Below, in pieces: positions 20,103 through 60,273 of a stretch of 64,000 bases of DNA (position 1 is the first letter of the stretch; the number at the start of each line of letters is the position of its first letter). The notes below the pieces were generated by a model, which saw only the letters and a list, made by a program, of their open reading frames with translations, ran no database searches and was not told where the DNA came from. Made by a program: the position numbers and the translations under genes. Origin of the DNA: Conchocele bisecta (taxonomy: Eukaryota; Mollusca; Bivalvia; Lucinida; Thyasiridae); the NCBI GenBank assembly GCA_029237695.1, contig CM055265.1:213854506-213918505 (forward strand). Reading direction: 5' to 3'.

Positions 20103-20531
20103 GTTAACTCTGGTTTCTCTTCAACCCACGCATAAATCTTTCGCCTTTTACTAAAGATTTCCGTGGAGAGGAACATTTAATGAGTCTATAGACTTATTTC
20201 TTTAGCCCTGTGAAAACAGGGTAATCAAATAAAACAAATGATACGTATCAAAATGTTTCTCTGATGATAGGTAAGATGGGATAATAGCATTAGTCGATGT
20301 TCGTACGTGTGTATGTAACAGCTATGATGTATGCACTGGTCCCACAAGCAGCGGTATTGTCAAAACATAGACTCTAAAGTCTGCATTACGTAGAATAGGG
20401 ATAAATAGTATCTAAAGCCGTTTGCGAACAACGCCCACCAAATCTTCCCATGCGTGTGCACAGACAGATATGGCGGATTATGAACACCCCACAATCGCCA
20501 GATTATAAAGTATGAACATTGCACATCAAAA

Positions 20532-29100: not shown

Positions 29101-30553
29101 GGGGGGATTTTCCTAGGAAATTATTTCCCCCCCACGGAAATTTTTCCCCCCCCCCAACCATCTACCATATGGACATGAGCGGTATTGTGAATGTCTCTTT
29201 TGTAGACAGGGAATTAGTCCCACGAGTTTGGGGGAGTATTTCTTGGTCTAAACACCGCGGGACTATTCACATTCCGCTCATGCTTATGGGTTAGGATGGT
29301 TGGGGGGGGGGGTGGGGGGGGAATATTTCCGAGGGAGGGGTTCGTTTTTAGCCTCTGCGAATTTTGCCGCACAGGACACCCTTGTCCACCACAAAAACTT
29401 TCTTTTAAATGTATTTTTCATGAATAATCCATTGGTTGATATTAGTGCATTTAGGAGCATAACAAAAATGCACATTGCTAGAACCAGTCTTTGTTGGTAA
29501 CTGAGACGGGACAACCATTACTATAACCCTTACATGTATACCCAACTTAATATAGTTCATAAGGTTTGTCTGCTTGTGGAGAAGTATGTGAAATTAGGCG
29601 AAGGGCAGCATTTTCTATAAAAGAAGATCTCCCAATTTAGTATAATATCCTATACAATAGACAATATAAAAATTGGTGGTGGCGGGCGGTTCGAGAGATT
29701 TCTAATTTGGCATGTGTGTATTGAGGGAGGTGGGGGGGGTGGGGGGGGGGATTTTCCAAGGAAATAGGTCCCCCCCCAAATTTCCCCCCCCCCCCCAACC
29801 ATCTACCATATGCCATAGCGGATGTGGAATGGTCTTCTTTGTAGACAAAAATTAGTCCACGATTGGGGGCGTTATTTCTTGTATACACAGAGGAACATTC
29901 ACATCCGCTATGCATATGGTAGATGGTTGGGGGAATAAAATTTCCTAGCGGAGAATCTCCCTAGGAGCATATCATATACATAGACAATATAGTGGTGGTG
30001 AGGCGGTAGAGATTCTATTGGTTATGTATTGAGGAGGGGGGGGAGGGGGGGGGGATTTTCCAAGGAAATATTTACCCCCTAACCATCTACCATTATGCAT
30101 TAGCGGGATGTGAATGTCTCTTTGTAGACAAGAATAGTCCACGAATTTGGGGGAGGGGGTATTTCTTGTTTTTTCTTACACACGGACTTACATCGCTATG
30201 ATATATGGTAGTGGTTGGGGTTGGGTGGGGGGGGGGGGGGTGGGAATTTGGGGGGGGGAATGGGGGGAAGGGGGGGGGAAAGGGGGGGGGGAAAAAAAAG
30301 GGGAGGGGGGGGGGGGGGGGGGGGGGGGGGAATGGGGGGGCAGGGGGGGGGGGGGGGGAATGGGTGGGACGGGGGGGGGGGAATGGGGTGTTGAGGGGGG
30401 CGGGGGAATTGGATGGGGGGAGGGGGGGGGGGGGGGCAGGGGGGGGATGAGCGGGGAGGCCGGACATGGGGTTCAGGGGGGGGGGGAGGTGAATGGGGGG
30501 GGGGGGAAGGAGGGCGGGCATTGGGGGGGGGGGGGGGGGGGGGAGGGGGGGGG

Positions 30554-30587
<34 letters not shown>

Positions 30588-30608
30588 GGGTGGAGGGGGG
30601 GGGGAAAT

Positions 30609-30643
<35 letters not shown>

Positions 30644-31627
30644 GAAGGGGGTTGGGGAAATAATATGGGGGAGAGGCGGGGGGGGGGGGGGGGGAGGAAA
30701 AAAGGGAGGGGGGGGGGGGAAAATATTTCCTAGGAGTTCGTTATTTTTAGCCTTCTGCGAATTTGCGACCGCCACCAGACACTGTCCACAAAACTTTTAA
30801 TGTATCTTTTCATATTACCATTGTTGATATTGTGCTTAGGAGCATACAAAATGCACCATGCTAGAAACCATGTCTTGTTGGTAACAGGGAGGGACGTTAC
30901 TATTCCCATACATGTTATATCCCCAACTAATTATATCATTAATGGTTTGTCTGATTGTGGAGGAAAGAAGTATGTGAATAGGGCGAGGCAGCATTTTCTA
31001 TAAAAGAGGCCTCTTCCAATTTAGTGTAATAATTCTATTATTCATAGACAATATAGTGGTGGTGGGGCGGTAGTGGTAGAGTTCTATTGGGCATGTTATT
31101 AGAGGGAGGGGGGGGGGATTTTCCAAGGAAATATTCCCCCCCCCAAACCATCTAACCATAATGCATAGCGGATTGTGAATTGTCTTCTTTGTAGGACAAA
31201 TAAAAATAGTCCACAGAGTTGGGGGAGTTGTATTTTCTTGGTATACACAGAGAATTCATTCACAACGCTATTGCAATTGGTAGATTGGTTTGGGGGAATA
31301 TTTCCTAGGAGAACTCTCCCTAGGAGCATTAATATCGTAATACTTTAGACAAATTATAGTGGTGGTGTGAGGCGGTAGAGATTCTATTGGTATGTTTTGA
31401 TTGGGGAGCGGGGGGGGGGGGGGGGATTTTCCAACGGAAATTAAATTTTCCCCACCCCCCCCCCAACCATCTTTACCATATGCATTAAGCGGATGTTGTA
31501 ATGTCTCTTTGTTTAGACAAGAATAGTCCACGATTGGGGGAGTATTTCTTTCTTGTCTACACAGAGACCTATTCACATCCGCTATACAGATGGTAGGTGG
31601 TTGTGTGGGGGGGGGGGGGGAGGGAAT
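26111..31627. repeat. Intronic tandem array of G-rich hairpin units
   Basis: Units begin with 'agttcgttttagcctctgcg' at about 26,111, 26,615, 27,459, 28,402, 29,339 and 30,734. The first complete unit is 504 bp; later ones reach 840-1,400 bp because a sub-part is repeated and G/C runs are longer. Each unit carries an inverted repeat: 'accatctaccatatgcata' pairs with 'tatgcatatggtagatggt', and a poly-C tract faces a poly-G tract. From ~27.35 to ~31.6 kb scattered base insertions appear, as in the left satellite copies. Confidence 0.85.
30212..30722. repeat. ~500 bp near-pure G tract
   Basis: Almost entirely G, with isolated A, T or C. It occupies the place of the 10-20 nt G run found in neighbouring units. 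Plus-strand open frames through it (poly-Gly) and minus-strand ones (poly-Pro) are composition artefacts. On DNA level it could form many G-quadruplexes. It may equally be a sequencing or assembly expansion. Confidence 0.85.
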
Positions 31628-33730: not shown

Positions 33731-35641
33731 CAGGGACCCTCCAGATTATCAGACAAAAATGGCAATTTTTTAACAATATTTTTCTAAAAATAGCAGCTAC
33801 GGGCATAAACTTTTCACAGAACAATCGTCGGTTCTTGCTTTCTCAACGCATGTAAACTATTTAGCAAACTGTGCCATCTTTCTCGCTTAAAATCGGGTCA
33901 GACCATCAGTCGTAAGATTGCCCCAAAATTAACATCGACAATCAGTTATCCGGACAAACATATAGACCACCGTATTTAGCCGTGTATTGCGCGCACTGGT
34001 GTACAACGCGCATCTATATTTTGGGGGAAAAAATCAGGAAAAAAATTGTTCGCGTCTATAGCGCGCAACAAAAAAAAGAAAGAAAAAAAAAGAAATCGGC
34101 GGAAATTTCGTCCGTCACGAGTATAAGAAAATTGTATTCCGAGTTCACATCCACAATGCTAAACGTGTGCTGTTAGGCTCTCTCAAAGAGAAAAAGATCG
34201 TCAAAGGTCAGCTTTGCTAATCGAGGCTATTTACTCATTAATATGCTTAATAAAAATTCAAGATGCATGTAATAAACTTATTGAACCTACTTACGAAGAA
34301 ATTTGTTGTATATAATGCCCCCATATTTGCCATTCGTGTATATAACATAATTACCCGTAATCGCAAACACACAGCAGCCATGTGTAAACTTCTTCCCCAA
34401 GGCGATAATAACTCCCTACTAGTGACCTGCACATGAGAAATGGGCCATAAACAAAAATAGTAACACAGTCAGTCGGCACCTAGCAACGAAAAACGACCAT
34501 TACCGAGTGTTATCGAGTGCGATCTGAATGTGCGCGACGCTTGATTTAGCATCTAAAATCTTACATCAAGCGCTTATGGGATTGAGATAATCTGTCCTCA
34601 TTAATTATTCACAGTATGGCAGACGTGTGACGTCACTTTGAAAATGTACAACCAAACAATACCCGACAGGCAACATTTGACCGATATGAGATCGGTACAC
34701 CAGCGTAAATACAGAAAACATGTAAATTTCCTCTAATACACGTAGCCTTTTATGTTACGAGCCTGGCTATATTAAATCCCAAAAGATACCAATTTACCAT
34801 CAATCTATACTTATCGCACCCATTCATATCAATTGATTCCTTTTCTCTTGTTTCACACTATGCGTAAATCAACGTCATAGCGGACACCTGTCAAAAATTG
34901 TTTAATACACGTAGCCTTTTATGTTACGAGCCTGGCTATATTAAATCCCAAAAGATACCAATTTACCATCAATCTATACTTACCGCACCCATTCATATCG
35001 ATTGATTCCTTTTCTCTTGTTTCACACTATGCGTAAATCAACGTCATAGCGGACACCTGTCAAAAATTGTTATTTCCGTTTCCGGGCTTGTTTTGTTTGC
35101 GTAAAACTGGCAGAAATCAGTTGGAAAAAATGTTTGAAATTTATGTTCCTACTTATAACGTGCAGGGTGACTTCTGGATTAAAAATAGGGCTGAAAAAAT
35201 GCGCGCAATACACGGCTAAACGGTAATCGTCTTATAACTTCTATTCTCACGTTGAAATCATAATGTTATTGCGTGTAAACCAGTGTAAACAGCATTGTGT
35301 ATTTCTGAAGAAAAATCAGTCACCCTTCGTTTCTTGGAAAACATCGTATTTATAGAATGTATTGTATTTATAGAACAATGACGTAATTGGGCGCACTCGA
35401 TTGAGCCCCCGCATGATTTTGTCGTTGTAAACAACTTCTGCACAGAGTTGAGAATGTGTTCAGCAAATGTTACTAAAATGTTTACCATGCCGACATATTC
35501 TTCACACTGGCATGGAAAAAGCATGCACCTGCATTACTTAGATGCATTCGTTGCAAAATCGGATCAAAAGAATGCGCTTAATTAACAGGTATTTTCATTT
35601 GTCCGATAAACTGATTGTCCGGATAATTGGTATGACCCTTG
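33731..35641. mobile_element. Non-autonomous Tc1/mariner-pogo type element, copy 2
   Basis: Bounded by TA at 33,729-33,730 and 35,642-35,643. The left end starts 'cagggaccctccagattatc'; the right end is 'ggataattggtatgacccttg'. Internal segments match copy 1 (21,454-22,665), for example 'tcgtaagattgccccaaaatt' spread over positions near 33,910. It is split by a nested element at ~33,969-35,225 that copy 1 lacks. Confidence 0.65.
33969..35225. mobile_element. TIR element 'ACCGTATTTAGCCGTG', copy A
   Basis: Left end 'accgtatttagccgtgtatt' and the inverted right end 'aatacacggctaaacggt' define a ~28 bp terminal inverted repeat. Copy 1 of the surrounding element reads straight through this site, so the insertion is certain, although its target duplication is unclear. 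A 169 bp internal block is duplicated in tandem (34,734-35,069). No transposase is encoded. A longer relative lies at 39,729-43,245 in the opposite orientation. Confidence 0.7.
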
Positions 35642-35642
35642 T

Positions 35643-36060
35643 AGGATAAAAATAAACAATTGGCGATAAATTTTTTTTTTTTTTTTTTTTTTTTAGAAAA
35701 TTGTAGTTTTTTATCGCAAATTGTTTATTTTTATCCTATTGGTTATTATAGAAAAAAAGAACAGAAAAAAAAAAAATAATTATCGCGAAAGTGGCGATCG
35801 CCAGCGGAATGAATCCCTGCACTGCTGTAGCTTGATAAGGAACTATGGCTTGTTAAAAGGATGGTGACTGGTAATGGTGAACTATGCAGACCCTGATCAG
35901 ACTGGGAACGTGCAGGTCTACACTGGCCCCATTTCTCCAGGGACAGTCACATGTTAACAGTGCAGATTCTTCATGAGACGGCTCGTTATGAGTCGGATCA
36001 GCTGGATCTACACTGTAAACATTTGGAAAGCAGTCTGTGGTGTTGTAAGGGTTAATTACT
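35643..36060. repeat. Palindrome and dispersed-repeat fragments
   Basis: 35,643-35,737 is an inverted repeat ('aaaaataaacaatt' against 'aattgtttatttt') around a T run. At 35,870-36,010 two degenerate copies of the 'gatcagcctg' family flank 'ggccccatttctccaggga', another single copy of the minisatellite core. Confidence 0.6.
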
Positions 36061-36823
36061 AGACTGAGAAGTAAATGACTTAGCTCGCAGTCCTCCGGTA
36101 TTGCAGTCTGCTTGCTAACCTCAGTCTAGACGCAGTCCCAGGTCTGTTTGCTTTGCAGCCCTCTGGGAGAGAAAAACGTATTGAACTGGTATTTAATTTA
36201 TTACAATAGTGACGTTGACTGGCAGGCGAGCCAGCCTGCATCCTGAGCTGCAGATACATGCTATATATTATCATGATATTTGTTGTTTCTGCATACAATA
36301 GCATGCATAATGGACTTTCCTCGAATTGTGGCCCTAGATGATGCGTTTGTCAGCAGTTCGCTAAGCATTATTCCATTTCATTTCTTTAGAATTGTCGCGT
36401 CAAGGAGACTCCGATGGATTCACTACTTGTCTCATTACATTTGGAATACACTTTTAGGTGTATCAAAATTTTGAAAACTTTTCTTTCAGATCTACATTAT
36501 TTTCCCTCACTGAGGCAAGGGGGATATAGCATTAGTCAATGTACGTATGTGTGTGCGTGCGTGTGTTAGTAAAACCTTTCATTTTTCAACCACTTATGAA
36601 CCACTTCACCGATTTTGATAATATTTGGCCACAATGTGTGTCTAGGGATGGTGCTTTGTTTTGCAAACGACCCACGTCCCACCGCCCAAGGTCAAGGTCA
36701 CTGAGGACTTATGTTCACCTTGTTTATAAGGCAAAATTGTTAAAAAAAAAAAATGATTATCAAGGCTGTCTGTGAGGGGATTAGCTTAGTGATAACGATG
36801 ACCTTGTTTCTCAATAATATAAG

Positions 36824-36960
36824 TTATTGTGATTCTACACAGGCTATATGGTGTAATATTGCCCGTCTGGAGGTATGTTCACCCGAGGCGATAGCCGAGG
36901 GTGAACATACCTTCAGACGGGCAATATTACATCATATAGCCTGTGTAGAATCACAATAAC
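36824..36960. repeat. 137 bp near-perfect palindrome
   Basis: Arms such as 'tgtgattctacacaggctat' and 'atagcctgtgtagaatcaca' match almost base for base, with the centre at 'gaggcgatagccg'. It would fold into a single long hairpin, as foldback MITEs do. Confidence 0.8.
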
Positions 36961-36964
36961 GTAT

Positions 36965-37646
36965 TTGTCATACCGCAGATCCGTTATTTGGCCGTATAAA
37001 CATATCTCTTCTTTTGATCTTTGCGTTTTTTCAGGAAGAAAAATAATCCGAGATTCGATTTTCTACCATCAGTCTTAATATAAAGGCGTAAATGAACATT
37101 TTGTTTCTTTATTAAACGAAAACAAACTAAATATGGAGTAAGAAATCCATCGAAAACGACTTTATGACAGTTTTTTTATGTCGTGTAATTTAATTGATAT
37201 TCCACTGCTCTATCGATCTACTCTCCCTTTGGCGCCTCCAGAAGAATGCGACTGGTTCCCAAATATTCGCTGTCATTGCTACGCCGCGCTTCGTGCGTGG
37301 AACCCATAGTTTATGACCCAGTCACGAAGCCAATTCTGTTGAGATTTGAAAACACTAAATGGGACAGTTTGTGGCATTTTTCGCTCATATTTTGATGAGC
37401 GAAGAATATTTATGGAAACATAAACAATAAAGACTGGTTTTGAGTGTACAATTTGTTACTTTTATTGATCAATTCGGGGTTTTATTGTGTTTAGTAGACG
37501 CTTGCAAAATGTGTCTGCATTGGACGCGAGGCGCCGGAGGGGAATCGCAATTCCTGTATGTCCGACGGTCTTGGCAGGTCATATAATATATATGACCAGG
37601 CAAGCTAGCCAATCAAACCCCGAGAAACTTATCTGCGGTATGACAA
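36965..37646. mobile_element. ~680 bp MITE with 16 bp TIRs
   Basis: 'ttgtcataccgcagat' at 36,965-36,980 is perfectly inverted at 37,631-37,646. No coding sequence is seen inside. It directly abuts the palindrome at 36,824-36,960, so the two may be parts of one larger foldback unit. Confidence 0.65.
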
Positions 37647-37729
37647 CAGTATATGTTGTGACCACTCATTTGAACCATCACTAAGGGCTATCTGAAGCTG
37701 TATGTTGTTATGGCTCTGGGACAATTTGT

Positions 37730-37860
37730 TCATGTGTGGCAGTGACTGGAGAAATGGGCCTTATGGGTTTTGCGACCAGTGTAGATCCAGATCAGCCTGT
37801 GCATCCGCACAGTCTGATCAGGATCTACACTATTCTCCATTCCATCAATGAAACGTGTCA
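37730..37860. repeat. Dispersed 'gatcagcctg' repeat joined to a minus-strand satellite monomer
   Basis: 'cagtgactggagaaatgggc' followed by 'cttatggg' is the reverse complement of the minisatellite core. It leads straight into 'gtgtagatccagatcagcct', the palindromic dispersed repeat. The same association, in the other order, is seen at 33,340-33,600. Confidence 0.65.
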
Positions 37861-38025
37861 TGCTTCTAACAAGCAATATAGATCTTTATCAGGCTATAGG
37901 AGTGATATGTAGCCTGTTTCACCAACATTGTAAAGTATACTTTGAGGGAGTAATCATTTATTTTTCCTGAAATGCATTATTTCATATAGAACTAACGACT
38001 GCATATATTGATGATTACAAGTATG

Positions 38026-38155
38026 CAGAATTATTATACTGAATTTATTACATTATCACAGCCAAAATGGCTGTGATAACAGAATTATTATACTGAATTT
38101 ATTACATTATCACAGCCAAAATGGCTGTGATAATGTAATAAATTCAGTATAATAA
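38026..38155. repeat. Duplicated AT-rich hairpin
   Basis: 38,085-38,155 is a palindrome with 'cacagccaaaatggctgtg' at its centre and arms 'attatactgaatttatta'. The left arm plus centre is also present just before it (38,026-38,081), as if half the hairpin had been duplicated. Confidence 0.75.
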
Positions 38156-38159
38156 AAAT

Positions 38160-39728
38160 TAATAAATTTATCCTAGAATTTAAAATTTCTGCCTCAAATT
38201 ATACTTTGCTAGAAAAGTATGCTTTGCAATTTTGATGAAATCGGCTTCTGATCAGGAGCGACACTGATGAATTTTCATTTACAGATATTGTACATTTTGT
38301 AAAAATCTGCAAAATCATGTACAAAATCACATGGCTTGTCTCATAATTCAACTGAAATGATGAACGAAAACATACATCCATCACATACATAGAGACGACA
38401 CTGATTATATATGGACAATTGTGAATATTTTTTTTATTTCTCACTGAAAGTGACAAAGACTGCCTGCCTGTCCTTGTGTATGATCTATGGTGATATACTG
38501 CTGTCTGATCATTACATCATTAGCCACCAATATGAAAATTCCCATTCACGTCACATCTGCAGGTCTATATTTTGCAGCAGTCATGTCCACTTATTTCAGC
38601 TATGTGTGACTGTGCGATCTCTGGACAGCATAGCTTGTTCCGTGACAAACATCTCTATACGGTAGTCATGTCCACCTACACTGCTGTATGTGTGACTGTG
38701 TGATCTCCAGTCAACATGGCTTCCTCCGTGACAAACACGCATCAATCAATAGGAGACCAGTGTAGCCCCAGTTGTAGCTTAATGATCAATTAAAGTGGTT
38801 GTCCTTCATACTTGAAAAGGAGGTCCTTATCTGTGACTGGGACATTAAACCCATTCATCTTTGTTGTCTGCTGTTATTTTATGCATCCCTGCCACCGTCC
38901 CGTACATCGTAACGTAACAAACTTAATGCTCGGGTAAATTTCTTATAATTTATATTTCCTTTTTCATAACTGCTTCATATTTCACATGGTCCTCTATCAT
39001 GCTGTGACAAGATCCTCGGGCCCCCGCTCAACCCAAGGTCAATGTCACATACTTGTAGTGCATTCACAAAGTGAAACTGAAATATCTTTGATGGTCCTCT
39101 ATCATGCAATGACCAATCCACGATCCTCCCGGCTTTTGTGTTTTCAAATGTGCCCTTATTTTCTTTGGCTGTGAGCGGTGGGACATTCGTCTGCCGACAG
39201 GCAACATTTCTAGTTTTTGTCACGCCAGCTCAGTAGGCCCCGGGCGCGTTAGGGTTGTCGGTACCATCCGAGTGCACCAAAGTTTTCTGGTGCCAATGTG
39301 TTTAGACACATATACTGTATATATTTCCGCATGATTGACTTTTCAAAGTAGTAGCTTAAGCCCACTAATTTGAATAAACAAGATGGCCGCCAGTGAAAAA
39401 AGCATCGGCTACCGTAGGATATATATTACATTGTGGAACAAATATTAGAAGGGTCATATTGGCGCATCCTTATTTATTTAATAGCTAATACATTACCGAA
39501 TATATAACAATCGATATAAGATTGAACCGAGCTTGTGAAAATCCAAAATGGCTGCCATTTTACAGGAATTTAAAAAAAATAAAAAAGGTACATGCCCACT
39601 CAGTAGGCACAAACTATTCTTTATATCAGTGACAACATCTGGGACATTTTGTATCCTGAACATTACATGTGTTAAAAGCATCATGGCTGTCGTGTACACT
39701 TGTTAAGTTCCACAAACAAGATGACAGT
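38160..39728. other. Host DNA without a recognised gene
   Basis: Two ~80 bp copies of 'gtcatgtccac...gtgtgactgtg' lie at 38,577-38,650 and 38,661-38,742. 'tggtcctctatcatgc' occurs at 38,991 and 39,091. Otherwise there is AT-rich sequence with no exon-like segment. Confidence 0.45.
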
Positions 39729-40832
39729 ACCGTATTTAGCAGTGTATTGCACGCACTTTTTCAGCCCCATTTTTAATCCAGAAGTCACCCTGCGTGTCAT
39801 AAGTAGGAACATATATTTCAAACATTTTTTCCAACTGATTTCTGCCAGTTTTACGCAAACAAAACAAGCCCGGAAACGGAAATATCAATTTTTGACAGGT
39901 GTCCGCTATGACGTTGAAATACGCATAGTGTGAAACAAGAGAAAAGGAATCGATCGATATGAATGGGTGCGGTAAGTATAGATTGATGGTAAATTGGTAT
40001 CTTTTGGGATTTAATATAGCCAGGCTCGTAACATAAGAGGCTACGTGTATTAAAGGAAATTTACATGTTTTCTGTATTTACGCTGGTGTACCGATCTCAT
40101 ATCGGTCAAATGTTGCCTGTCGGGTATTGTTTGGTTGTACATTTTCAAAGTGACGTCACACGTCTGCCATCCTGTGAATAATTAATCAGAACAGATCTCA
40201 ATCCCATAAGCGCTTGATGTAAGATTTTAGATGCTAAATCAAGCGTCGCGCACATTCAGATCGCTCTCGGTAACACTCGGTAATGGTCGTTTTTCGTTGC
40301 TAGGTGCCGACTGACTGTGTTACTATTTTTGTAAAGTATTGACAAGTATTCACGCATCAATACCTTATGACATGTGCGACCAGCATAGCCCCTGATTCAT
40401 CTGCGCATACACTGATATGGGGCTATGTTGGAATGTCGTGTATTCAGGTAGTACCTATGTATATTGTTAAACCTAATCAATAAACAGTGATTACACACTA
40501 TCTGTACCTACGTATATCCACGGTGGTCCACAGTGTCAATATTTGGCTGGGGGGAATTGTTTATGGCCCATTTCTCATGTGCAGGTCACTAGTAGGAGTT
40601 ATTATCGCCTTGGGGAAGAAGTTTACACATGGCTGCTGTGTGTTTGCGATTACGGGTATAAATGACAGACGATAATAAGTTGCTGGAGGTCAATCGATGA
40701 GTCCAAATATAGGTAGGCCAGGTGTATTATCATATCATAGCCTCGTTTTCGTGTATACTAACTACATGATAAAGTGCACGTGCATGCATGTCAATATAAT
40801 AGTGTATCTTGGTGCGCAAAATAGACATGTAG

Positions 40833-40925
40833 TGTGGCTCAGTGGCTCAGCGGGAGAATATCCATAGTTAGCAGAACGTTTGTTCATTTTATCTGCTCGA
40901 GAGTTCGAACCTCACAAAACGCATT
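40833..40925 (+). repeat. tRNA-like sequence (pseudo-tRNA or SINE head)
   Basis: 'tggctcagcggg' fits an A box and 'gagttcgaacctc' a B box, spaced as in a class with a long variable arm or an insertion. Stems do not close cleanly, so it is unlikely to be a working tRNA. Confidence 0.35.
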
Positions 40926-40945
40926 ACTTTTGTCGATATCATTCT

Positions 40946-42345
40946 GTTTTTGTCGCGCCCGCTTGCGGAAAGCGCGATATAGTCGGCCGTTTGGCGTACG
41001 TTCGTACGTACGTGTGTCCGGTTAAAGTTTTTGGTTAAGCTGTAAGGTTAAGTTTTTTGGTTAATGTTTTTGGTTAAGTTCTTTGGTTAAAGTTTTTGGT
41101 TAACTTTTTTGGTTAAGTTGTTTGGTTAAATTTTTTGGTTAAAGTTTTTGGTTAAATTCTTTGGTTAAAGTTTTTGGTTAAGTTTTTTGGTTAAGTTTTT
41201 TGGTTAAAGTTTTTGGTTAAAGTTTTTCGTTATACTATATCTCTGCAACTGCTTTGCCCATTACCTTGAAACTTCACATGGGTGTTTATCATCATCTATA
41301 TTTTCATTCTACCCCCATCCCGTGCGGCCCCTGTGCCCAATGTCAAGGTCAAATTACTTTGAAGTTTTTGGTTAAGTTTTTTGGTTAAAGTTTTTGGTTA
41401 AGTTTTTTGGTTAAGTTTTTTTGGTTAAAGTTTTTCGTTATACTATATCTCTGCAACTGCTTTGCCCATTACCTTGAAACTTCATATGGGTGTTTATCAT
41501 CATCTATATTTTCATTCTACCCCCTCCTGTGCGGCCCCTGTGCCCAATGTCAAGGTCAAATTACTTTTGAAATTTTTGGTTAAGTTGTTTGGTTAAAGTT
41601 TTGGGTTAAGTTGTTTGGTTAAAGTTTTTGGTTAAGTTCTTTGGTTAATGTTTTTGGTTAAGTTTTTTGGTTAAGTTTTTTGGTTAAGTTTCTTGGTTAA
41701 AGTTTTTCGTTAAGTTTCTTGGTTAAAGTTTTTTGTTATACTATATCTCTGCAACTGCTTTGCCCATTATCTTCAAACTTCACATGGGTGTTTATCATCA
41801 TCTATATTTTCATTCTAGCCCCCTCCCGTGCGGCCCCTGTGCCCAATGTCAAGGTCAAATTACTTTGAAGTTTTAGGTTAAGTTGTTTGGTTAAGTTTTT
41901 TGGTTAAAGTTTTTCCCCTGTGCCCAATGTCAAGGTCAAATTACTTTGAAGTTTTTGGTTAAGTTTTTTGGTTAAGTTTTAAGTTTTTTGGTTAAAGTTT
42001 TTCGTTATACTATATCTCTGCAACTGCTTTGCCCATTACCTTGAAACTTCACATGGGTGTTTATCATCATCTATATTTTCATTCTACCCCCCTCCCGTGC
42101 GGCCCCTGTGCCCAATGTCAAGGTCAAATTACTTTGAAGTTTTTGGTTAATGTTTTTGTCGCGCCCGCTTGCGGAAAGCGTGATATAGTCGGCACTTTGG
42201 CGTACGTACGTGTGTCCGGTTAAACTTTTTGGTTAAGTTTTTTGGTTAAGTATTTTGGTTAAAGTTTTTCGTTAGACTATATCTCTTTTTTTAGTGTCCA
42301 TGCCTCGCCACAAGGCGCGACATGCAGGCCGCGGCCATCTAGTTT
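40946..42345. repeat. TTGGTTAA low-complexity array with four embedded conserved blocks
   Basis: Short repeats of 'gtttttggttaa' or 'gttttttggttaa' are interrupted four times by a ~135 bp block starting 'actatatctctgcaactgc' and containing 'gtgcccaatgtcaaggtca' (about 41,226, 41,440, 41,735 and 42,000). The array is bracketed by 'tgtcgcgcccgcttgcggaa' at ~40,951 and ~42,156. It is part of the sequence inserted into copy B. Confidence 0.85.
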
Positions 42346-42627
42346 TTATGACTGGTTGCTGGAGAAGGGAATAAGTGAAACGGCGAGGGTTATCACTATT
42401 GCTGTTTGACCTCAATATGACATGATCTGCGAGAACATACTCCAAGATTCTTCATGTACATACATATGTGCATTTAGTTATTAGTTTTCTAAGTGAGACT
42501 AACGTTCTACATGTAATCTATATCATGCTTAGTTAATGTAATTTGTAAGAGCAACACACATAAAAAAGAAATATATAATAAAATATAAACAAATACAAAT
42601 ATATGTGTATACATGTATGAAAAACTA

Positions 42628-42700
42628 AGATTCGAACTCACTAGCTACGGCATTGATATCTTCACTGTAACCCCTCGACTACATAACACTTCATGACAAA
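42628..42700 (-). repeat. tRNA-like sequence on the minus strand
   Basis: Read in reverse, 'tagtcgaggggttacag' resembles a D-arm/A box and 'gagttcgaatctt' a B box. Arms are imperfect. It is probably a tRNA-derived repeat. Confidence 0.3.
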
Positions 42701-43339
42701 TCTCAAAAATCAATATTGAAAAGGAATATTGCCACGGGTATATTTACCTGTCTCACCTATTCTGTGTTTTGTTTATGATCGGTTTGTATGTAAACAAGTA
42801 GCAAGTTATCGTCTGCGGACTATAATTATGTTATACTCGAATGGCAAATATGGTGGAATTATATACAACAAATTTCTTCGTAAGTAGGTTCAATAAGTTT
42901 ATTACATGCATCTTGAATTTTTATTAAGTATATTAATGAGTAAATAACAATAAATATAACATACTTTTAGACAATATAAAGTCTAATTTATGCCATAAAG
43001 CCGACCTTTGGCGATCTTTTTCTCTTCGAGAGAGCCTAACAGCACTTGTTCAGCATTGTGGATGTGAACTCAACTCGGAATGCAATTTTCTTATACTCGT
43101 GACGGAATTTCCGCAGATTTTTTTATTTTTTTTTTATTTTTTGTTGCGCGCTATAGACGCAAACAATTTTTTCCCTGATTTTTCCCCCCAAAATATAGAT
43201 GCGTGTTGTACACCAGTGCGCGCAATACACAGCTAAATACGGTAATTGTTGAAAATTACATATATTTTATAAACTTTTTCTCTCTATATGTATCATACAT
43301 GCATACACGACGGGAATTTTCCAACCAACTTCGGATAAT

Positions 43340-43744: not shown

Positions 43745-43925
43745 AGTAGTATATAGGGAGTCAAAATGATACCACCTAACGGTGGTATCATTTCTCCACC
43801 CTATATACTACTCCACCGCCCCCCGAAAAACTCCAAAATTGGTTAACGAGGAAATTGTCACCCGACAGCAAAAACGTGACAATTGGTGTCATAAATACAT
43901 AGATGAAAAGAGGTCCAATTGAACA
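43745..43925. repeat. Left terminal inverted repeat of the Polinton with terminal hairpin
   Basis: It begins 'agtagtatatagggagtc'. The first ~69 bp fold on themselves: 'tgataccacc' pairs with 'ggtggtatca' and 'agtagtatataggg' with 'ccctatatactact'. 'attggttaacgagg' and 'cccgacagcaaa' follow. The same succession occurs at both ends of the element nested in the capsid gene (50,234-50,433 and 55,742-55,940), which identifies it as a terminus. The partner repeat is expected to the right of position 64,000. The AG start agrees with Polinton termini. Confidence 0.7.
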
Positions 43926-49847: not shown

Positions 49848-50233
49848 ATGTCTTCGAGTCAATACGGTCGTAAACTCAATCCATATCGCAGACTGCGTGA
49901 GCCCCTCGGGGCAAAAGGTGTGAGACAGAGTGTCGTTATTACGAACAACCCATCGACGATCGACCAGAACCAGCAGCTCTTAGTCCGCTTCCCCAACCTC
50001 GGAGCTAGCGACGTCATTATGCCGGGGACTGTTCGCCGCGCTTTCACTATTTCGCTTACATCGACGGACGCGGACCGAACCATCGTTCAGAACCTGGGTC
50101 GCGCCATCGTCAAGAAGACTATGATAAAGATTTCTGGTAATGAGGTGATGTCGATCGATGACAGCGACGTCTACCATTGCTACCAGGACCTGTGGAAGAC
50201 TGCGCAAGAGCGCGAAAATGCGGTATATCAGGG

Positions 50234-50433
50234 AGTAGTAGTAAGGGAGTCAAAATGATACCACCTACCGTGATATCATTTATAACCCTCTATAATACCC
50301 CCACCACCCCCGAAAATCAAAAAATTGGTTAACGAGGAAAATTGGGTCTCCCGACAGCAAATTTATGAATTTTTGGAGAAAATAATTTTGAAAAGAGGGA
50401 GTCCCAATTATATTGGTAATTGACTTTTGAAAA
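50234..50433. repeat. Left terminal inverted repeat of the nested element
   Basis: Inverted copy at 55,742-55,940, with one or two differences over ~200 bp. 'gggagtcaaaatgatacc', 'attggttaacgagg' and 'cccgacagcaaa' are shared with the Polinton left end. The terminal hairpin is degenerate here ('ccacctaccgtgatatc'). Confidence 0.88.
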
Positions 50434-50464
50434 AAGTCGAAATCATTCATGCAAGTACAATAGT

Positions 50465-52497
50465 TTATAAGAGTGTAAAAATCGCTCCGACAACAACGGT
50501 TTTCGACAACCACAATCCATAGAAAACCACAGCAAGCGTTTCTGCAACCAAATTCTAGCTATTTGTAGTACTTTTTTTCTCGCATGGGAGGGTTTGGAAG
50601 ATTCTATCGAAACAACTTCCCACCAACATCGAAATATTCTAGAACAACCAATTGAATTAACATATGTTGTTGTATATGTATTCGACAACAAAGTTTGAAA
50701 AATGGCATATACGACAACTTTCCAAGAGATGGGTATCCGAGCAGCGAAAAGTGTTTCCAAGCATTTGCTCTTGGAGAACGCATTCGAAAACAATCTTGTT
50801 TTGACAGTCGAGGGGTAGACTACCTCGAAAGCCACGAGGGACAAACAAATTTGCAACCTCTAGAAGGTTTGCCAGCATTTGTAGACGATTTGTACGTGTT
50901 TGGCTATCTAGATAGAGAAGAATGTGTAGTAGTAGGAAACAAAGCATCTTGCACAACAGGGGAAAAGGGGTCTGCGAAAAATTGCGTGGGTAGGATAGCA
51001 ATTGCATCTAGAGAAACAATTGGAAGGGATAGCAAACCATTGCACACTACAATCGTGCACACAATTCGACGTGGGGAAGAGTTTGGAAATAGTTCCATTC
51101 GAAATACTGTGGAGCGCATAAAAGAAGCTAGCGGAAGCATAGCAAAAAGAAGGTGGGTAGAAATACACTAAGGGGCAAACCCCTTCGCATTGTTTGTTGC
51201 AAAAATAGCAGTGTCCGAAATAGCAATAGAAATTCTAGAAGAGCAGCTGCAATCTCTGCTTACTAGACTGCGAGCAGCTGGAATGGAAATCTACTGTGTG
51301 GACTACACGAAAGACTTTTCCGGTACACTAGATAGACCGGCTTTGGTAGAACATCTAGAGAAAGAGAAATACTTTGCGATGCAAGGGAAAAATAGAGGAT
51401 GGGGAGGGTTCGAAGAAGATGTAGGAACAATTCAGGTAATAACAACACAGGTACAGTAGGGAATCATGTTTGCTCTTGGGTACAAACCAGAGACAACAGA
51501 ACCACTAGAACGAAATTGTACAACAAGGTAGTTTCCAATTTCGAGGCAGGAGAAGTACGAGCAAGCATTGGTGGGCATCTAGCAGACTACGCAGATTGCA
51601 CAAACGACCATCTTCGGAAAACATTCCAACATGCGGATGTACAACGAAGAGGTTGCACTAGAATCGAGGTTTCGGTCTACGGTTCTCCAGATATTTCCAA
51701 AGAGACAGCACTAGAGGTGCTTGCAGAAGCAGAAGAGAAAGTGTCGGGGGCAAATCTATTTGTCGTACAGCCTCCGTACAAACAATGGGAAAATCCATCG
51801 ATAGATGTTTTGTGCTAGGAGACAAACCATGTGGAGAGATCTTTGTAGCATGGTATGTGCACACAGGTACAGGTAGGATTGCTGGAGTTCGTGTACGACC
51901 AACTGCGGCCACTATTGCAGATCCTTCTAGATGGAGTAGAGCAATGGAGTGGGCAGCTGCAGATTTTGGGTTCCGGGAATGTCCAATCTTTCTAGCAGAG
52001 ATTCTGTCTGTGGAAGATGGAGATATAGAAATGTCTCCACTACGGTGTTTTGCAAAGGCAAGCGATTCTTCCACAATACTCTGTGCTTGCAGTCGTCCAA
52101 CCGAAATTCGTGCTAGAAGCGAGGAAGTAGATCTAGAAGAAGTACTTCCATCTACAAAATACATCCAATGGAAGTGGAGAGAGGAAAAATGCCAAACGGT
52201 AGGTGTAGGGAAATCCAAATTCGAAATTCTAGAAGTTCCGGAAATAGCAGCTACTAGGTGTGTTTCCACGCTCTCCCCATACAATAGAGCGAACAGAATG
52301 GCACAATTGCAAGATGCCGAGGAAGCAGAAAGTTGGAGAAGGGCAACCCTTGCAAAAGAGCTAGAAAACTACTCTAGAGAAGAGCACAATAGACGAGCAA
52401 TCGAGCTAGAAAAGCTTGCGGAAGCTGCCAAGAAACATACAGAATACATTTGCCAAAAGGAAGAAGCTGTTCGAAAAATGCTAGGAGACAACAGAAC
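50465..52497 (+). repeat. Left arm of the fold-back palindrome
   Basis: Starts 'ttataagagtgtaaaaatc'. Nearly identical, inverted, to 53,228-55,272; differences are few substitutions and small indels, such as ~10 bp missing here near 51,795. The arms diverge after 'aggagacaacagaaca'. Arm plus spacer carries protein-coding character on the strand pointing inward. Confidence 0.9.
50470..51171 (+). pseudogene. Fold-back cargo gene 1 (left-arm copy), unrecognised protein
   Basis: Coding character begins right at the arm start without an ATG and switches frame near 50,690 and 50,810. It then runs open to a stop at 51,169 (...RNTVERIKEASGSIAKRRW). Recognisable stretches are NILEQPIE, GYPSSEKCFQAFALGERIRK and NKASCTTGEKG. 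Codon choice is distinctive (many CTA, AGA, GCA, and the TCTAGA string is common) and unlike the Polinton genes. The right-arm copy at 54,571-55,270 has its own, partly different lesions, so neither is intact. I do not know the family. The missing start suggests that the 5' end was lost or lay outside the palindrome. Confidence 0.4.
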
Positions 52498-52507
52498 AAT
52501 GTTCTAG
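51190..52507 (+). pseudogene. Fold-back cargo gene 2 (left-arm copy), possible replication-initiator-like protein, truncated
   Basis: Runs from about 51,190 (FVAKIAVSEIAIEILEEQLQ) through frame changes near 51,440 and 51,795 to 52,507. The middle has TRTKLYNKVVSNFEAGEVR, then GCTRIEVSVYG about 45 residues on. A 'KLYNK ... RIEV' pairing is seen in some Rep_trans/phage-type replication initiators, which is my only functional hint. Further on are WAAADFGFRECPIF and a coiled coil (ELENYSREEHNRRAIELEKL). The 3' part of the gene is lacking because the arm ends. The fuller copy is on the minus strand (52,498-54,552). No close family is recognised. Confidence 0.4.
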
Positions 52508-53227
52508 ATTTTCTTTTGGATGGTGTAGTGCGAGGCTCCCCAATTCTACATCGAAGTGGATTCTGTAGTTCCCGAAGAGGTACACCAATGCTATCTATTT
52601 CTTTCTGTAGGAAAAACCCGTATGTAGGAATTTCCACTCCTGTTGTTGGAGTACCGTCTTCGTTTGTGGCTACCAGAAATAGAATTGTTCTTTCGCATCC
52701 TCTGTACAGTGTGTTGCAGTACCTACTACAATCGTACAAACCTGCTTCTACATCTATATCTCTGTGGGTTTCCATTTTCTTTTGCAATACAACCTCCTCT
52801 ACGCACAATCTCTCTGTAGAATTGTACTCTTCCGTCTCTCTAACCAATTTTTGTACTCTCTCCAACTCTCTTGGATCTGGGGTTTCTACAACTTCTATGG
52901 GGTTCCATCGAATGGTCCTACCTCGGCTCCAGAACTGCTTCCCAGGGCATACTAGAATTCGAAGAGAAACACGTGGTGGTAGCCAGAATGTTTCCCTATC
53001 TAGATGCTTTCCACCCTCCCTTTTGAACGCCTCCTTGCAACTATCTAGAACTTTGGAAATTCCTCTGGTTGTCCAAACACAAAGATGTTTTGTGCCAGTT
53101 TTGCGTATGGAATCTCCCCACAAAACTACTCTCGTACTATCTCCAAACTCCCCACCAGATCTACTACGGAAACCTAGAATGTGCCACACTTTGTTTTCTC
53201 CTTCTGGTAGGTCCGAAATTTTGTATG
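52498..53227. other. Unique spacer (loop) of the fold-back palindrome
   Basis: 730 bp present once. On the minus strand it continues the frame of the right-arm gene for about 240 codons without a stop, then runs into antisense left-arm DNA. It shows which end of the gene is single copy. Confidence 0.85.
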
Positions 53228-54552
53228 TTCTGTTGTCTCCTAGCATTTTTCGAACAGTTATACGGAGTTCTTCCTTTTGGCAAATGTATTCTGTATGTTT
53301 CTTGGCAGCTTCCGCAAGCTTTTCTAGCTCGATTGCTCGTCTATTGTGCTCTTCTCTAGAGTAGTTTTCTAGCTCTTTTGCAAGGGTTGCCCTTCTCCAA
53401 CTTTATTTCTGCTTCCTCGGCATCTTGCAATTGTGCCATTCTGTTCGCTCTATTGTATGGGGAGAGCGTGGAAACACACCTAGTAGCTGCTATTTCCGGA
53501 ACTTCTAGAATTTCGAATTTGGATTTCCCTACACCTACCGTTTGGCATTTTTCCTCTCTCCACTTCCATTGGATGTATTTTGTAGATGGAAGTACTTCTT
53601 CTAGATCTACTTCCTCGCTTCTAGCACGAATTTCGGTTGGACGACTGCAAGCACAGAGTATTGTGGAAGAATCGCTTGCCTTTGCAAAACACCGTAGTGG
53701 AGACATTTCTATATCTCCATCTTCCACAGAACAGAATCTCTGCTAGAAAGATCGGACATTCCCGGAACCCAAAATCTGCAGCTGCCCACTCCATTGCTCT
53801 ACTCCATCTAGAAGGATCTGCAATAGTGGCCGCAGTTGGTCGTACACGAACTCCAGCAATCCTACTGTACCTGTGTGCACATACCATGCTACAAAGATCT
53901 CTCCACATGGTTTGTCTCCTAGCACAAAACATCTATCGATGGATTTTGCTAGATTTTCCCATTGTTTGTACGGAGGCTGTACGACAAATAGATTTGCCCC
54001 CGACACTTTCTCTTCTGCTTCTGCAAGCACCTCTAGTGCTGTCTCTTTGGAAATATCTGGAGAACCGTAGACCGAAACCTCGATTCTAGTGCAACCTCTT
54101 CGTTGTACATCTGCATGTTGGAATGTTTTCCGAAGATGGTCGTTTGTGCAATCTGCGTAGTTCTGCTAGATGCCCCACCAATGCTTGCTCGTACTTCTCC
54201 TGCCTCGAAATTGGAAACTACCTTGTTGTACAATTTCGTTCTAGTGGTTCTGTTGTCTCTGGTTTGTACCCAAGAGCAAACATGGTTCCCTACTGTACCA
54301 GTGTTGTCTAGAATTGTTCCTACATCTTCTTCGAACCCTCCCCATCCTCTATTTTTCCCTTGCATCGCAAAGTATTTCTTTCTCTAGATGTTCTACCAAA
54401 GCCGGTCTATCTAGTGTACCGGAAAAGTCTTTTGTGTAGTCCACACAGTAGATTTCCATTCCAGCTGCTCGCAGTCTAGTTTGCAGAGATTGCAGCTGCT
54501 CTTCTAGAATTTCTATTGCTATTTCGGACACTGCTATTTTTGCAACAAACAA
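52498..54552 (-). pseudogene. Fold-back cargo gene 2 (right arm plus spacer), longest version, frameshifted
   Basis: On the minus strand from ATG 54,552 it repeats the left-arm protein, with frame changes near 54,360, 54,030, 53,740 and 53,360. It then reads through the spacer: EGENKVWHILGFRSRSGGEF, FWLPPRVSLRILVCPGKQFW, TPDPRELERVQKLVRETEEY, ERTILFLVATNEDGTPTTG. It ends artificially where the left arm begins (...TTPSKRKSR). Total coding length would be about 680 residues: an N-terminal helical part, a possible Rep-like core, a central coiled coil and a C-terminal beta-rich part. No catalytic motif could be assigned with confidence. Codon use is as in gene 1 and unlike the Polinton. Confidence 0.45.
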
Positions 54553-55272
54553 TGCGAAGGGGTTTGCCCCTTAGTGTATTTCTACCCACCTTCTTTTTGC
54601 TATGCTTCCGCTAGCTTCTTCTATGCGCTCCACAGTATTTCGAATGGAACTATTTCGAAACTCTTCCCCGCGTCGAATTGTGTGCACGATTGTAGTGTGC
54701 AGTGGTTTGCTATCCCTTCCAATTGTTTCTCTAGATGCAATTGCTATCCTACCACGCAATTTTTCGCAGACCCCTTTTCCCCTGTTGTGCAAGATGCTTT
54801 GTTTCCTACTACTACACATTCTTCTCTATCTAGATAGCCAAACACGTACCAAATCGTCTACAAATGCTGGCAAACCTTCTAGAGGTTGCAAATTTGTTTG
54901 TCCCTCGTGGCTTTCGAGGTAGTCTACCCCTCGAATGTCGACACAAGATTGTTTTCGAATGCGTTCTCCAAGAGCAAATGCTTGGAAACACTTTTCGCTG
55001 CTCGGATACCCACTCTTGGAAAGTTGTCGTATATGCCATTTTTCAAACTTTGTTGTCGAATACATATACAACAACATATGTTCAATTGGTTGTTCTAGAA
55101 TATTTCGATGTTGGTGGGAAGTTGTTTCGATAGAATCTTCCAAACCCTCCCATGCGAGAAAAAAAGTACTACAAATAGCTAGAATTTGGTTGCAGAAACG
55201 CTTGCTGTGGTTTTCTATGGATTGTGGTTGTCGAAAACCGTTGTTGTCGGAGTGATTTTTACACTCTTATAA
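53228..55272 (-). repeat. Right arm of the fold-back palindrome
   Basis: Inverted counterpart of 50,465-52,497 and almost identical to it. It ends 'cactcttataa' at 55,272. No target duplication is visible around the palindrome itself: left flank 'caatagt', right flank 'cagccta'. Confidence 0.9.
54571..55270 (-). pseudogene. Fold-back cargo gene 1 (right-arm copy)
   Basis: Counterpart of 50,470-51,171. Readable parts include EDSIETTSHQHRNILEQPIE, YPSSEKCFQAFALGERIRK and, in another frame, LRGRIAIASRETIGRDSKPL ending at 54,571. One-base differences from the left arm (for example near 55,013 and 54,835) move the frameshifts. The shared reading frame with locally different breaks suggests decay after the inverted duplication formed. 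Confidence 0.4.
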
Positions 55273-55273
55273 C

Positions 55274-55350
55274 AGCCTACATGGTCGTGTGGGTTAAGGC
55301 AATACTCTATAGAGACGAGGCTCGTGGGTTCGCGCCGCGGTAGAAATGTA
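55274..55350 (+). other. tRNA-like stretch next to the palindrome
   Basis: 'atggtcgtgtgggttaaggc' resembles the D-arm of Leu/Ser-type tRNAs and 'gtgggttcgcgccgcgg' a T-arm with a B-box-like core. 'ctac' and 'gtag' could close an acceptor end. The anticodon arm is not convincing, so I treat it as tRNA-derived or coincidental. Confidence 0.3.
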
Positions 55351-55403
55351 CATTCGTAAACGAATCGTTGGGTTTTAAAATTTTTGTATAATACACCTTA
55401 GTT

Positions 55404-55754
55404 TCATATCTGATACGCATTATCTGTCTTAATGTTCGTATTTGCCTCTTGTATAGTTGACATAATTGCCGGTATAATTGTAAATGCAACGTTTTTATCG
55501 GAGCGTAATAAATTACGCTGGTATTTCATGTATTCGATATCACCTAGTGTTCTCATTTTATAGAATTTATATACAGGATTATAACCCTCGTAAGCTTCGT
55601 AAACTTCTTCAACACAGTCATTAAAAATTTGCAATTCAAATTGTATTGTATTATCCATTTTCTCTAATAATATTGGTACTTGTTTTTTCTGTTCAGTTGG
55701 ACGTGAAAAAAACATGATGTATTTATGACACCAATATATACTTTCAAAAGTCAA
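55404..55754 (-). CDS. Hypothetical 116-residue protein of the nested element
   Basis: Open from ATG 55,754, just inside the right terminal repeat, to 55,404. The product is mixed, with helical stretches (KMDNTIQFELQIFNDCVEEV, DIEYMKYQRNLLRSDKNVAF) and no membrane segment, Cys cluster or known motif. It is AT-rich and its codon use is closer to the Polinton polymerase than to the fold-back cargo, so it may be a remnant of the element's own gene content. A chance frame cannot be excluded. Confidence 0.35.
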   Translation of the reverse strand: MTFESIYWCHKYIMFFSRPTEQKKQVPILLEKMDNTIQFELQIFNDCVEEVYEAYEGYNPVYKFYKMRTLGDIEYMKYQRNLLRSDKNVAFTIIPAIMSTIQEANTNIKTDNAYQI

Positions 55755-55940
55755 TTACCAATATAATTGGGACTCCCTCTTTTAAAAATTATTTTCTCCA
55801 AAAATTCATAAATTTGCTGTCGGGAGACCCAATTTTCCTCGTTAACCAATTTTTTGATTTTCGGGGGTGGTGGGGGTATTATAGAGGGTTATAAATGATA
55901 TCACGGTAGGTGGTATCATTTTGACTCCCTTACTACTACT
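55742..55940. repeat. Right terminal inverted repeat of the nested element
   Basis: Inverted counterpart of 50,234-50,433. Just inside it, 'gtatttatgacaccaatat' (55,718-55,736) is the inverse of the subterminal repeat near 43,974, extending the homology to the Polinton end beyond the repeat itself. Confidence 0.88.
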
Positions 55941-56246
55941 CAGGGTTTTGACACCAGTCGAAATAAGAACGTAACCAGACTTAGAATCGGGGCTGGTGAC
56001 AAGGTAGATAACGTCGCGAGTGACAACGCGGTCGCGGGCAACCGATTGTACATCATGCTTGACTTTGAGTTGCTGGAGAGTCACATGCCCTACTATCAGA
56101 GCGCTTTGGCGGACCGCCTCGAATACGAACTAATGTTCAACGACTACGGCCGAGTGTGACGATCCAGATAACCAAAGAGGCGGATGGATCTGGCACATTG
56201 AACGTATACTTATATATAATAACGGACGCGCAACTCAACATCGGAA

Positions 56247-59256: not shown

Positions 59257-60273
59257 ACACGCGCAAACTTGATACCAACTAACGAAGGAAGCTGGCGAAT
59301 ACGTACTATAGCCCACGCGGCTACTGGAAGGGACTCGCGGCCATCAAGAACCTCGCGGCGGCGACCAAGGTTTCCGAAAACGCTGTCAAGGAATGGCTCA
59401 AGAAGCAGGCCATCTGGCAGATCTATTTACCCGCGCCTCACAATATTCCGCGCCCGAAATTCGACGTGCCGGTTCCGAACCAAGTTCACCAAGCGGATCT
59501 CCTGTTTGTCCCTCACGATCGCATCGGTCGCAAGACGTACAAGTACGCACTGACAATCGTTGACGTAGCGTGTCGTTATAAGGGGGCTGAGCCGTTGGCC
59601 ACTAAAGAGTCTAAGGAGGTGGCCGAGGCTCTTTCCCGAATATATAAGAGGAGTCCTCTCAAATGGCCAAATCTTCTCCAGGTCGATCCCGGCCGTGAGT
59701 TCATGGGCGCGGTCTCTCATCTATTGTCTAAGCACAAAGTTTCTATCAGACGCGGCCGCGTCAACATCCACCGGGACCAGGGGATCGTGGAGCGCTTCAA
59801 TCGAAACCTGGCTGAGAGACTGTTCGGACACCAATACGCTAAAGAACTTGTAGACCCTCATTCGCGATCGACCGAGTGGGTGGCCAGACTGCCCGCCGTG
59901 GTCTCCGCACTGAACGGAGAGGTGACCAGATTGATAGGTAAGAAGCCCGTAGATGCTATCAAGTTTAAAAGGGTGACGAGCAAGCCCTCTGCCTCGTCTC
60001 GCGCGGCGACCCGTTGGTTTAGAGGAGCAACGGCTTCCATCGGATATTGACGTCCGCTACCTCTATCAACCGGGAGAGCTCGAAGGTGGCAGCCGCCGCG
60101 CGACTGATCCCGTGTGGTCTCTCAATGTATATCATCTAGATCGATCTATTACCAAACCTGATGAGCCCGTGCTCTACTATTTGGATGATGGGCCCTCTCG
60201 AGGGTTTGTTCGCGAAGAACTTCTTATGGTGCCTTCTGACACCCAGTTACCCCCAGATCGTCAGAGTCTTTAG
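59253..60273 (+). pseudogene. INT: Retroviral-type (rve) integrase, with an early stop and a late frameshift
   Basis: The frame starts at ATG 59,253 but meets TAA at 59,280-59,282. The same frame then encodes the N-terminal domain (YYSPRGYWKGLAAIKNLA, VKEWLKKQAIWQIYLPAP) and the catalytic core. Catalytic acidic residues are visible as HQADLLFV, QVDPGREFMG and GIVERFNRNL; the last two are 35 residues apart, the D,D-35-E arrangement. Near 60,015 the frame shifts: the old frame ends at 60,050, while another frame continues with a C-terminal part (VRYLYQPGELEGG, YHLDRSITK) to 60,273. About 340 residues in all. A start at the GTG codon 59,466 is not credible in a eukaryote. It would insert the element with a 5-6 bp duplication. 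Its stop overlaps the convergent polymerase stop by four bases. Confidence 0.85.

Follow-up and report, generated by a model that had tools for sequence, protein, structure and literature searches.

Polinton/Maverick elements and their non-autonomous derivatives have long terminal repeats that start with AG and end with CT, and they are bordered by a short target duplication; autonomous copies encode their own polymerase, integrase, capsid and ATPase. Foldback and other long-inverted-repeat DNA transposons have very long inverted repeats. Nested parasitism is also known among virus-like elements, and the nearest precedent we found is the preference of Ngaro retrotransposons for EMALE virophages of Cafeteria, as described in excerpts of PMC8547959. 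Among replication initiators, the Rep_trans group is bacterial with archaeal cousins, according to an excerpt of PMC13107129 (2026). Here we analyzed a 64,000-bp stretch of the Conchocele bisecta genome, hereafter the window (contig CM055265.1, designated C1, positions 213854506-213918505, in an assembly of 1.89 Gb and 1,196 contigs), in which the capsid gene of a Polinton is interrupted by a 5,707-bp insert. We found that the insert is a composite, in which the ends of a Polinton family that we call family A enclose a palindromic element that we call Pal. The explanation we hold to be probable is that these ends surround an internally deleted Pal copy, that the composite likely entered through the family-A integrase, that the Pal protein is a predicted nickase, and that the palindrome is renewed through a hairpin. 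The insert resembles described Polintons in its AG...CT tips, long terminal repeats and short duplication, but no Polinton gene was found in it and its interior is replaced by the palindromic element. Pal resembles Ngaro in being a mobile element that favors virus-like elements, whereas Ngaro elements are retrotransposons with direct repeats from a protist (excerpts of PMC8547959) and Pal consists of palindromic DNA that apparently travels between Polinton tips.

The insert (50234-55940) begins AGTAGTAGTAAGGG and finishes CCCTTACTACTACT, with AG at its start and CT at its end, in agreement with the AG start that a first-pass annotation of the window had given for Polintons. Its inverted termini (50234-50432 and 55742-55940) are 199 bp long and differ by one mismatch. 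The plus-strand sequence caggg is read directly repeated on both sides, at 50229-50233 and 55941-55945. The borders given in the first-pass annotation, caggg around a 5,707-bp insert with inverted termini, were thus correct to the base. That annotation had also proposed that the capsid frame resumes to the right of the insert, and we found that it does so for 72 codons: the plus-strand flank translates from 55941 as QGFDTSRNKN..., to be compared with ...AVYQGIDTSKNKN... across the site in an uninterrupted relative. The 5' part of the capsid gene up to the insert (49848-50233, plus strand) aligns with family-A capsid genes and has a Capsid_N match. The open reading frame (ORF) concerned, 49848-50258, extends into the insert, and its Capsid_N match is weak (E 7.6e-4; 19.5 bits, where the cut-off is 24). 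The search for an empty capsid site in other Polinton copies, suggested in the same annotation, was productive: five of eight family-A copies in this genome (L031, L032, L035, L037 and L038) have an uninterrupted capsid gene with a single CAGGG at the insert site. Copy L036 has lost the corresponding part of the gene through a separate deletion of its own, and for L033 and L034 no capsid match was present within the 10 kb read.

The ends of the insert belong to family A. On the left lies a family-A right end (50234-50464, plus strand), made of the 199-bp terminal repeat and a further 32 bp, 231 bp in all. On the right lie the family-A left terminal repeat (55742-55940, minus strand, 199 bp) and part of the left-end interior (55273-55741, minus strand), in which a 73-bp block is joined to a 402-bp block with about 225 bp between them missing. 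The Polinton-end DNA between Pal arm and terminal repeat is therefore 469 bp on one side versus 32 bp on the other. Across the 11 family-A loci listed, the 199-bp repeat is 98-100% identical and a 603-bp left end is 97.7-99.2% identical. With a 469-bp left-end probe, 3,350 first-look candidates were obtained in the genome, 40 of which were scored, and the right-end subterminal motif occurs at 1,138 places (557 and 581 on the two strands) at up to three mismatches, with none for the control motif. The insert ends thus occur more than 1,000 times in the genome, in line with the independent copies with the same ends that the first-pass annotation had asked for. Pairing both kinds of end gave full-length family-A copies of 17,431 bp (C2:55864667-55882097) and 16,953 bp (C1:224217965-224234917). 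The duplication could be read in two of three copies tested; in the third, the fetched sequence did not show one of the tips. The two readable full-length copies are flanked by GGCCA and GTATT, from which it follows that family A duplicates 5 bp, as at the insert. A duplication of about 6 bp had been expected; a short duplication was indeed found, and its size is 5 bp here and in both readable copies. We conclude that family A is an abundant Polinton family of about 17 kb that makes 5-bp duplications.

Most of the insert is a single palindrome, a feature absent from the first-pass annotation. The Pal left arm (50465-52498, plus strand) has a fixed terminus, TTATAAGAGTG, and contains ORF 51785-52507, a fragment of a gene for a large Pal protein. 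The right arm (53226-55272, minus strand) carries a frame-broken copy of the same gene on the minus strand. With gaps counted, the left arm and the inverted right arm are 97.2% identical. Between them is a 727-bp spacer (52499-53225, minus strand). In full Pal copies both arms include this stretch, and for that reason the copy in the window reads as having lost its middle, that is, as internally deleted. Scans of the insert ORFs gave no Polinton-type Pfam match (polymerase, integrase, capsid or ATPase), so that, as a Polinton, the insert is at most a non-autonomous derivative. Two simpler descriptions were set aside. A plain miniature inverted-repeat transposable element was dropped because the palindrome is repeated on its own in the genome, and the absence from the interior of any Polinton gene that we could find spoke against an ordinary Polinton copy. 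The notion of a "second element" in the capsid gene therefore holds for a unit with Polinton tips and a duplication, and gives way to a composite, in which Polinton ends are combined with a palindromic element. Taken together, we conclude that the insertion is real, ordinary in its mode (Polinton tips and a 5-bp duplication) and extraordinary in its content.

Pal is an independently repeated, near-perfect palindromic element. A spacer probe gave 442 candidates in the genome; of the 40 scored, the window's own copy matched at 100% and the 39 others at 94-99%, and many of these matches form inverted pairs 1.9-2.9 kb apart from start to start. Seven Pal copies, each merged from a pair of overlapping stretches, form palindromes along most of their 6.2-6.6 kb of sequence. 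The Pal tip sequence is TTATAAGAG, and the terminus TTATAAGAGTGTAAAAATC(N)CTCCGACAACAA occurs at 119 places at up to two mismatches (59 forward and 60 reverse; none for the control). Among the 100 places listed, many form inward-facing pairs. Twenty elements were sampled at their tips, 15 of them of a TTATAAG type and five of a TTATAGG type. The latter tips mark a second Pal subfamily, often 8-12.6 kb from tip to tip (for example C1:9993793-10005445, C4:121880900-121893524 and C16:6903075/6903188). The flanks of TTATAGG-type elements carry on as inverted repeats in all five sampled, and at C16:6903075/6903188 a spacing of 113 bp between two Pal tips suggests tandem terminal repeats. Each arm of Pal encodes a protein of about 870 aa. 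The arms also contain a second ORF (238 aa; L046:2405-3118, minus strand), which has one relative at 47% and no credible Pfam match.

Could Pal be a cut-and-paste transposon with long inverted repeats, inserted in a deleted non-autonomous family-A Polinton that then moved once? The Polinton ends and duplication of the insert are standard, as this reading expects, and Pal ends are fixed at TTATAAG beside many different sequences. A target duplication of Pal's own, which such a transposon should have, was not seen in the 20 sampled elements: none of at least 3 bp was found outside the common TTATAA/TATA, the exception being three TTATAGG-type elements whose inverted flanks contain the 6-bp palindrome AGTACT. 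The native Polinton sites at the window's joints also lack TTATAA (TTATAT and TTATGA). Among the 56 Pal protein members scanned, there was no transposase-type Pfam match across the family, and DDE_Tnp_4 matched one member. Together with the inverted Polinton flanks described below, these observations lead us to regard the transposon reading as unlikely. Pal shares very long inverted repeats with foldback transposons and differs from them in that both of its arms have the same ORFs and none of the 20 elements sampled showed a duplication of its own.

The sequences next to Pal connect it to Polintons beyond the window. We fetched 60 bp around the 20 elements and compared these flanks with the left 10 kb and the last 231 bp of family A. 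A family-A match was present in 7 of 30 flanks, which belong to six of the 15 TTATAAG-type elements, where 0.2-0.5 flanks would be expected by chance (for 1,138 to 3,350 copies). None of the five TTATAGG-type elements had such a match. At L087 both flanks are the same Polinton end, inverted and broken at different positions, and in a composite on contig 10 both flanks likewise come from one kind of Polinton end, inverted; a simple insertion of Pal into a Polinton does not give this arrangement. The right Pal/Polinton joint of the window occurs at one place in the genome at up to three mismatches. The left joint, between Polinton right end and Pal, recurs at six places, two of which have TTATAGG tips; a seventh place listed in that search is not a Pal tip. 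The window's joints have microhomology: native Polintons have TTATA in common with the Pal tip at the left joint (5 bp; three of three copies) and TTAT at the right joint (4 bp; seven of eight copies). Microhomology is not general, because native and Pal sequences have only 0-1 bp in common at the five other alignable joints and the L091 joint has nine unmatched bases.

The contig-10 copy provided a prediction. This Pal copy starts at C10:43929042, at the same Polinton right-end joint as in the window, and the Polinton tip lies at 43928811 with GTTAG before it. Its other flank is also a Polinton right end, inverted, so that the far tip was predicted at about 43936921, followed by a second GTTAG if the unit had integrated as a whole; the stretch fetched next reads CTTACTACTACT|GTTAG. 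The composite thus spans C10:43928811-43936921 (8,111 bp), with Polinton right ends on both sides in inverted orientation. With GTTAG on both sides, at least two composites, of 5,707 and 8,111 bp, have two Polinton tips and a 5-bp duplication. In both of two other Pal loci checked, L116 and L117, a Polinton tip lies at the predicted distance on the one side checked. We conclude that the insert has a composite structure, and the two composites with duplications strongly suggest mobilization by a Polinton integrase.

These results bear on two further readings. The insert could be a fold-back deletion product, like a defective-interfering genome, of a Polinton lineage that carries the Pal genes, with Pal not being independent. 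Inverted duplication is known to arise when linear DNA replicates, as in adenovirus-type genomes, and several Pal copies are flanked by Polinton ends. We nevertheless consider this very improbable: Pal has its own fixed terminus and its protein has 117 relatives, and eight family-A copies showed no Pal match in their first 10 kb, a comparison that stops short of the family's right-hand 7 kb. The other possibility is an assembly artefact caused by a chimeric or palindromic read in the contig, as perfect-looking palindromes may arise as read artefacts. We find this hardly credible in view of the 5-bp duplication, the 469- versus 32-bp asymmetry between arms and tips, arms that diverge by 2-3% with indels, palindromic copies on other contigs, and a second composite that had the predicted duplication.

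The large Pal protein has 117 relatives among 7,998 candidates scored, including sea slug, sea anemone and metagenome sequences. In a Pfam scan of 56 members, no listed family matched more than two. The homolog P0009 had no Pfam family at E<=1, and Rep_trans (PF02486) was not among the 25 of 37 Pfam families listed for the 56 members. A model of one domain was obtained with a pLDDT of 91.1 and a pTM of 0.87, and its best Foldseek match was RepDE (4cwe; E 1.4e-3, probability 0.69). In an alignment of 56 rows, numbered by P0009, a KxYxK motif is conserved (K274 56/56, Y276 56/56, K278 55/56), which corresponds to Rep_trans motif III (R/K-x-Y-x-K, containing the catalytic tyrosine). Lysine takes the first place of the motif in Pal, given that RepDE has R189-x-Y191-x-K193 there (excerpts of PMC4797284). 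Also conserved are an RxE motif (R323 54/56, E325 55/56), as in Rep_trans motif IV, and two acidic positions on predicted strands (D62/D63 53/56, D206/D210 56/56), which are putative metal ligands. Motif II, T-x-Y-x-G in Rep_trans, is different in Pal, where the corresponding positions are T246 (36/56), L248 (54/56) and N250 (56/56). The order of residues, acidic, [K/R]xYxK and RxE, is as described for Rep_trans in excerpts of PMC4797284 and PMC13107129. From the model and the alignment, we predict that the Pal protein contains a nicking domain of TBP-like fold that resembles Rep_trans. It would share the fold and residue order with Rep_trans initiators (RepDE, RepSTK1) and archaeal Rep-Arvir, and differs from them in its length of about 870 aa, its occurrence in animal genomes and metagenomes, its motif II, its lack of a Pfam match and its location in a palindromic element; it is known from sequence and a model.

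Other searches added little to this picture. Broken Pal gene pieces had no relatives in viral contigs, and neither did alignment A1; one 240-aa piece had a single relative. Alignment A2 had no relatives in prokaryote genomes, and sequence searches against solved structures gave nothing credible. A tRNA scan found none. A viral fold library returned three matches at E<1e-3 (two nameless and one to an uncharacterized phage protein) with target TM scores of 0.19-0.21, which we did not use.

We compared 14 arms of the seven merged Pal copies, counting minority variants present in exactly two arms. Ninety-two such variants were in both arms of one element and ten in different elements, where 7.7% within one element would be expected from the pair numbers. 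One divergent copy, C1a, supplies 71 of the 92. When C1a and the rearranged copy C6a were excluded (10 arms), 31 variants were in the same element and seven in different elements, with 11.1% expected. Two observations weigh against a simple paired renewal: the arms of copy C3a are placed in different parts of a tree, and 344 variants are confined to one arm. Because two-arm variants mostly fall within one element, we conclude that Pal arms tend to be renewed together, by hairpin copying or by gene conversion, which these counts do not separate.

A fourth reading accepts the composite and holds that the Pal protein is a DNA-binding protein of TBP fold without nicking activity, with the arms kept identical by ordinary gene conversion. 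It overlaps with the structural part of the explanation we favor. The KxYxK motif, the RxE motif and the pair of acidic residues on strands, all of them present in 53-56 of the 56 rows, speak against it, and the TBP-like fold is itself a property of Rep_trans proteins (excerpts of PMC4797284). We regard this reading as somewhat unlikely.

The favored explanation can be set out as a series of proposed steps. Pal DNA was likely joined to broken or replicating Polinton DNA, through microhomology at least at the window insert, and perhaps while both were extrachromosomal. The products would be molecules bounded on both sides by Polinton tips, acceptable to a Polinton integrase; the family-A integrase would have recognized the Polinton tips of the composite and left the 5-bp duplication in the capsid gene. 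Replication of Pal would be started by nicking by its large protein (through D62/D63, D206/D210, K274-x-Y276-x-K278 and R323-x-E325 in P0009), and copying around a hairpin end would renew the palindrome, which would keep its arms alike. Nicking, hairpin replication and a hitchhiking or satellite lifestyle are thus predicted features of Pal.

More tentatively, and with rather less than even confidence, we suggest that Pal represents an unrecognized class of animal mobile DNA: a hairpin-replicating palindrome with a eukaryotic relative of Rep_trans, a satellite of Polintons whose DNA is swapped into the space between their tips and which rides their integrase. The titles and abstract beginnings of the best literature matches listed, a search with Repbase and preprints outside its scope, included no palindromic Polinton-associated element and no eukaryotic element of Rep_trans type; an unnamed database entry for Pal may exist. 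If the suggestion is true, animal Polintons have satellites of their own, and Pal is to eukaryotes what defective-interfering or hitcher elements are elsewhere. An enzyme group for replication, described in PMC13107129 as bacterial with archaeal cousins, would gain a third, eukaryotic branch, and a protein family with members of about 870 residues, for which we found no Pfam model, would receive a name. The suggestion would also offer a testable route by which virus-like elements acquire foreign DNA and bear on how a palindrome spanning a whole element stays uniform.

The Polinton that received the insert extends from a left tip at 43745 to the end of the window at 64000, with its right end past the window. 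Blocks at and just inside its tip align with family A in the same order, at about 75-95% identity over aligned blocks, and it belongs to a different subfamily, B. Its left tip (43745-43812) is followed, 4 bp away, by another copy of itself in inverted orientation, with which it forms a near-hairpin of 32 bp. The element has the Polinton gene set of capsid, ATPase, rve integrase and type-B DNA polymerase. Pox_A32 (ATPase; E 3.8e-9) and DNA_pol_B_2 (E 1.5e-8) score above the Pfam cut-offs, and the rve match (E 1.5e-6) is below. Pieces of its capsid and ATPase genes had no relatives in viral contigs.

The first-pass annotation inferred that the insertion in the capsid gene would abolish virion production and leave polymerase and integrase available. 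The gene is interrupted, but the insert is not its only lesion. Beyond the insert (55941-56159, plus strand) the resumed frame ends at a TGA (56157-56159) at the edge of a deletion. At this edge (56154-56155, plus strand), about 550-571 bp of capsid gene are missing compared with the six of eight family-A copies that are comparable. Either lesion may have come first, and the insert is therefore not certain to have killed an otherwise whole gene. That polymerase and integrase remain available is doubtful. Four minus-strand ORFs follow one another between 60270 and 63881, three of which were scanned; the DNA_pol_B_2 match lies in a single one of them, and from this we infer that the polymerase is broken. 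The integrase core is open in 59466-60050.

Elsewhere, the window contains a large nested inverted repeat at 33969-43243 (for example 34590-34900 and 39886-40196, 97% identical), which has no BLAST match to the insert, and an extremely G-rich block at 30001-31000 (GC 0.60, GC skew 0.68). Positions 1-20222 are a tandem array with a repeat length of about 4 kb, in which five U5 small nuclear RNA genes are spaced about 4 kb apart (4484-4622, 8492-8615, 12312-12437, 16088-16205 and 20105-20222; Rfam RF00020, 47.8-89.7 bits).

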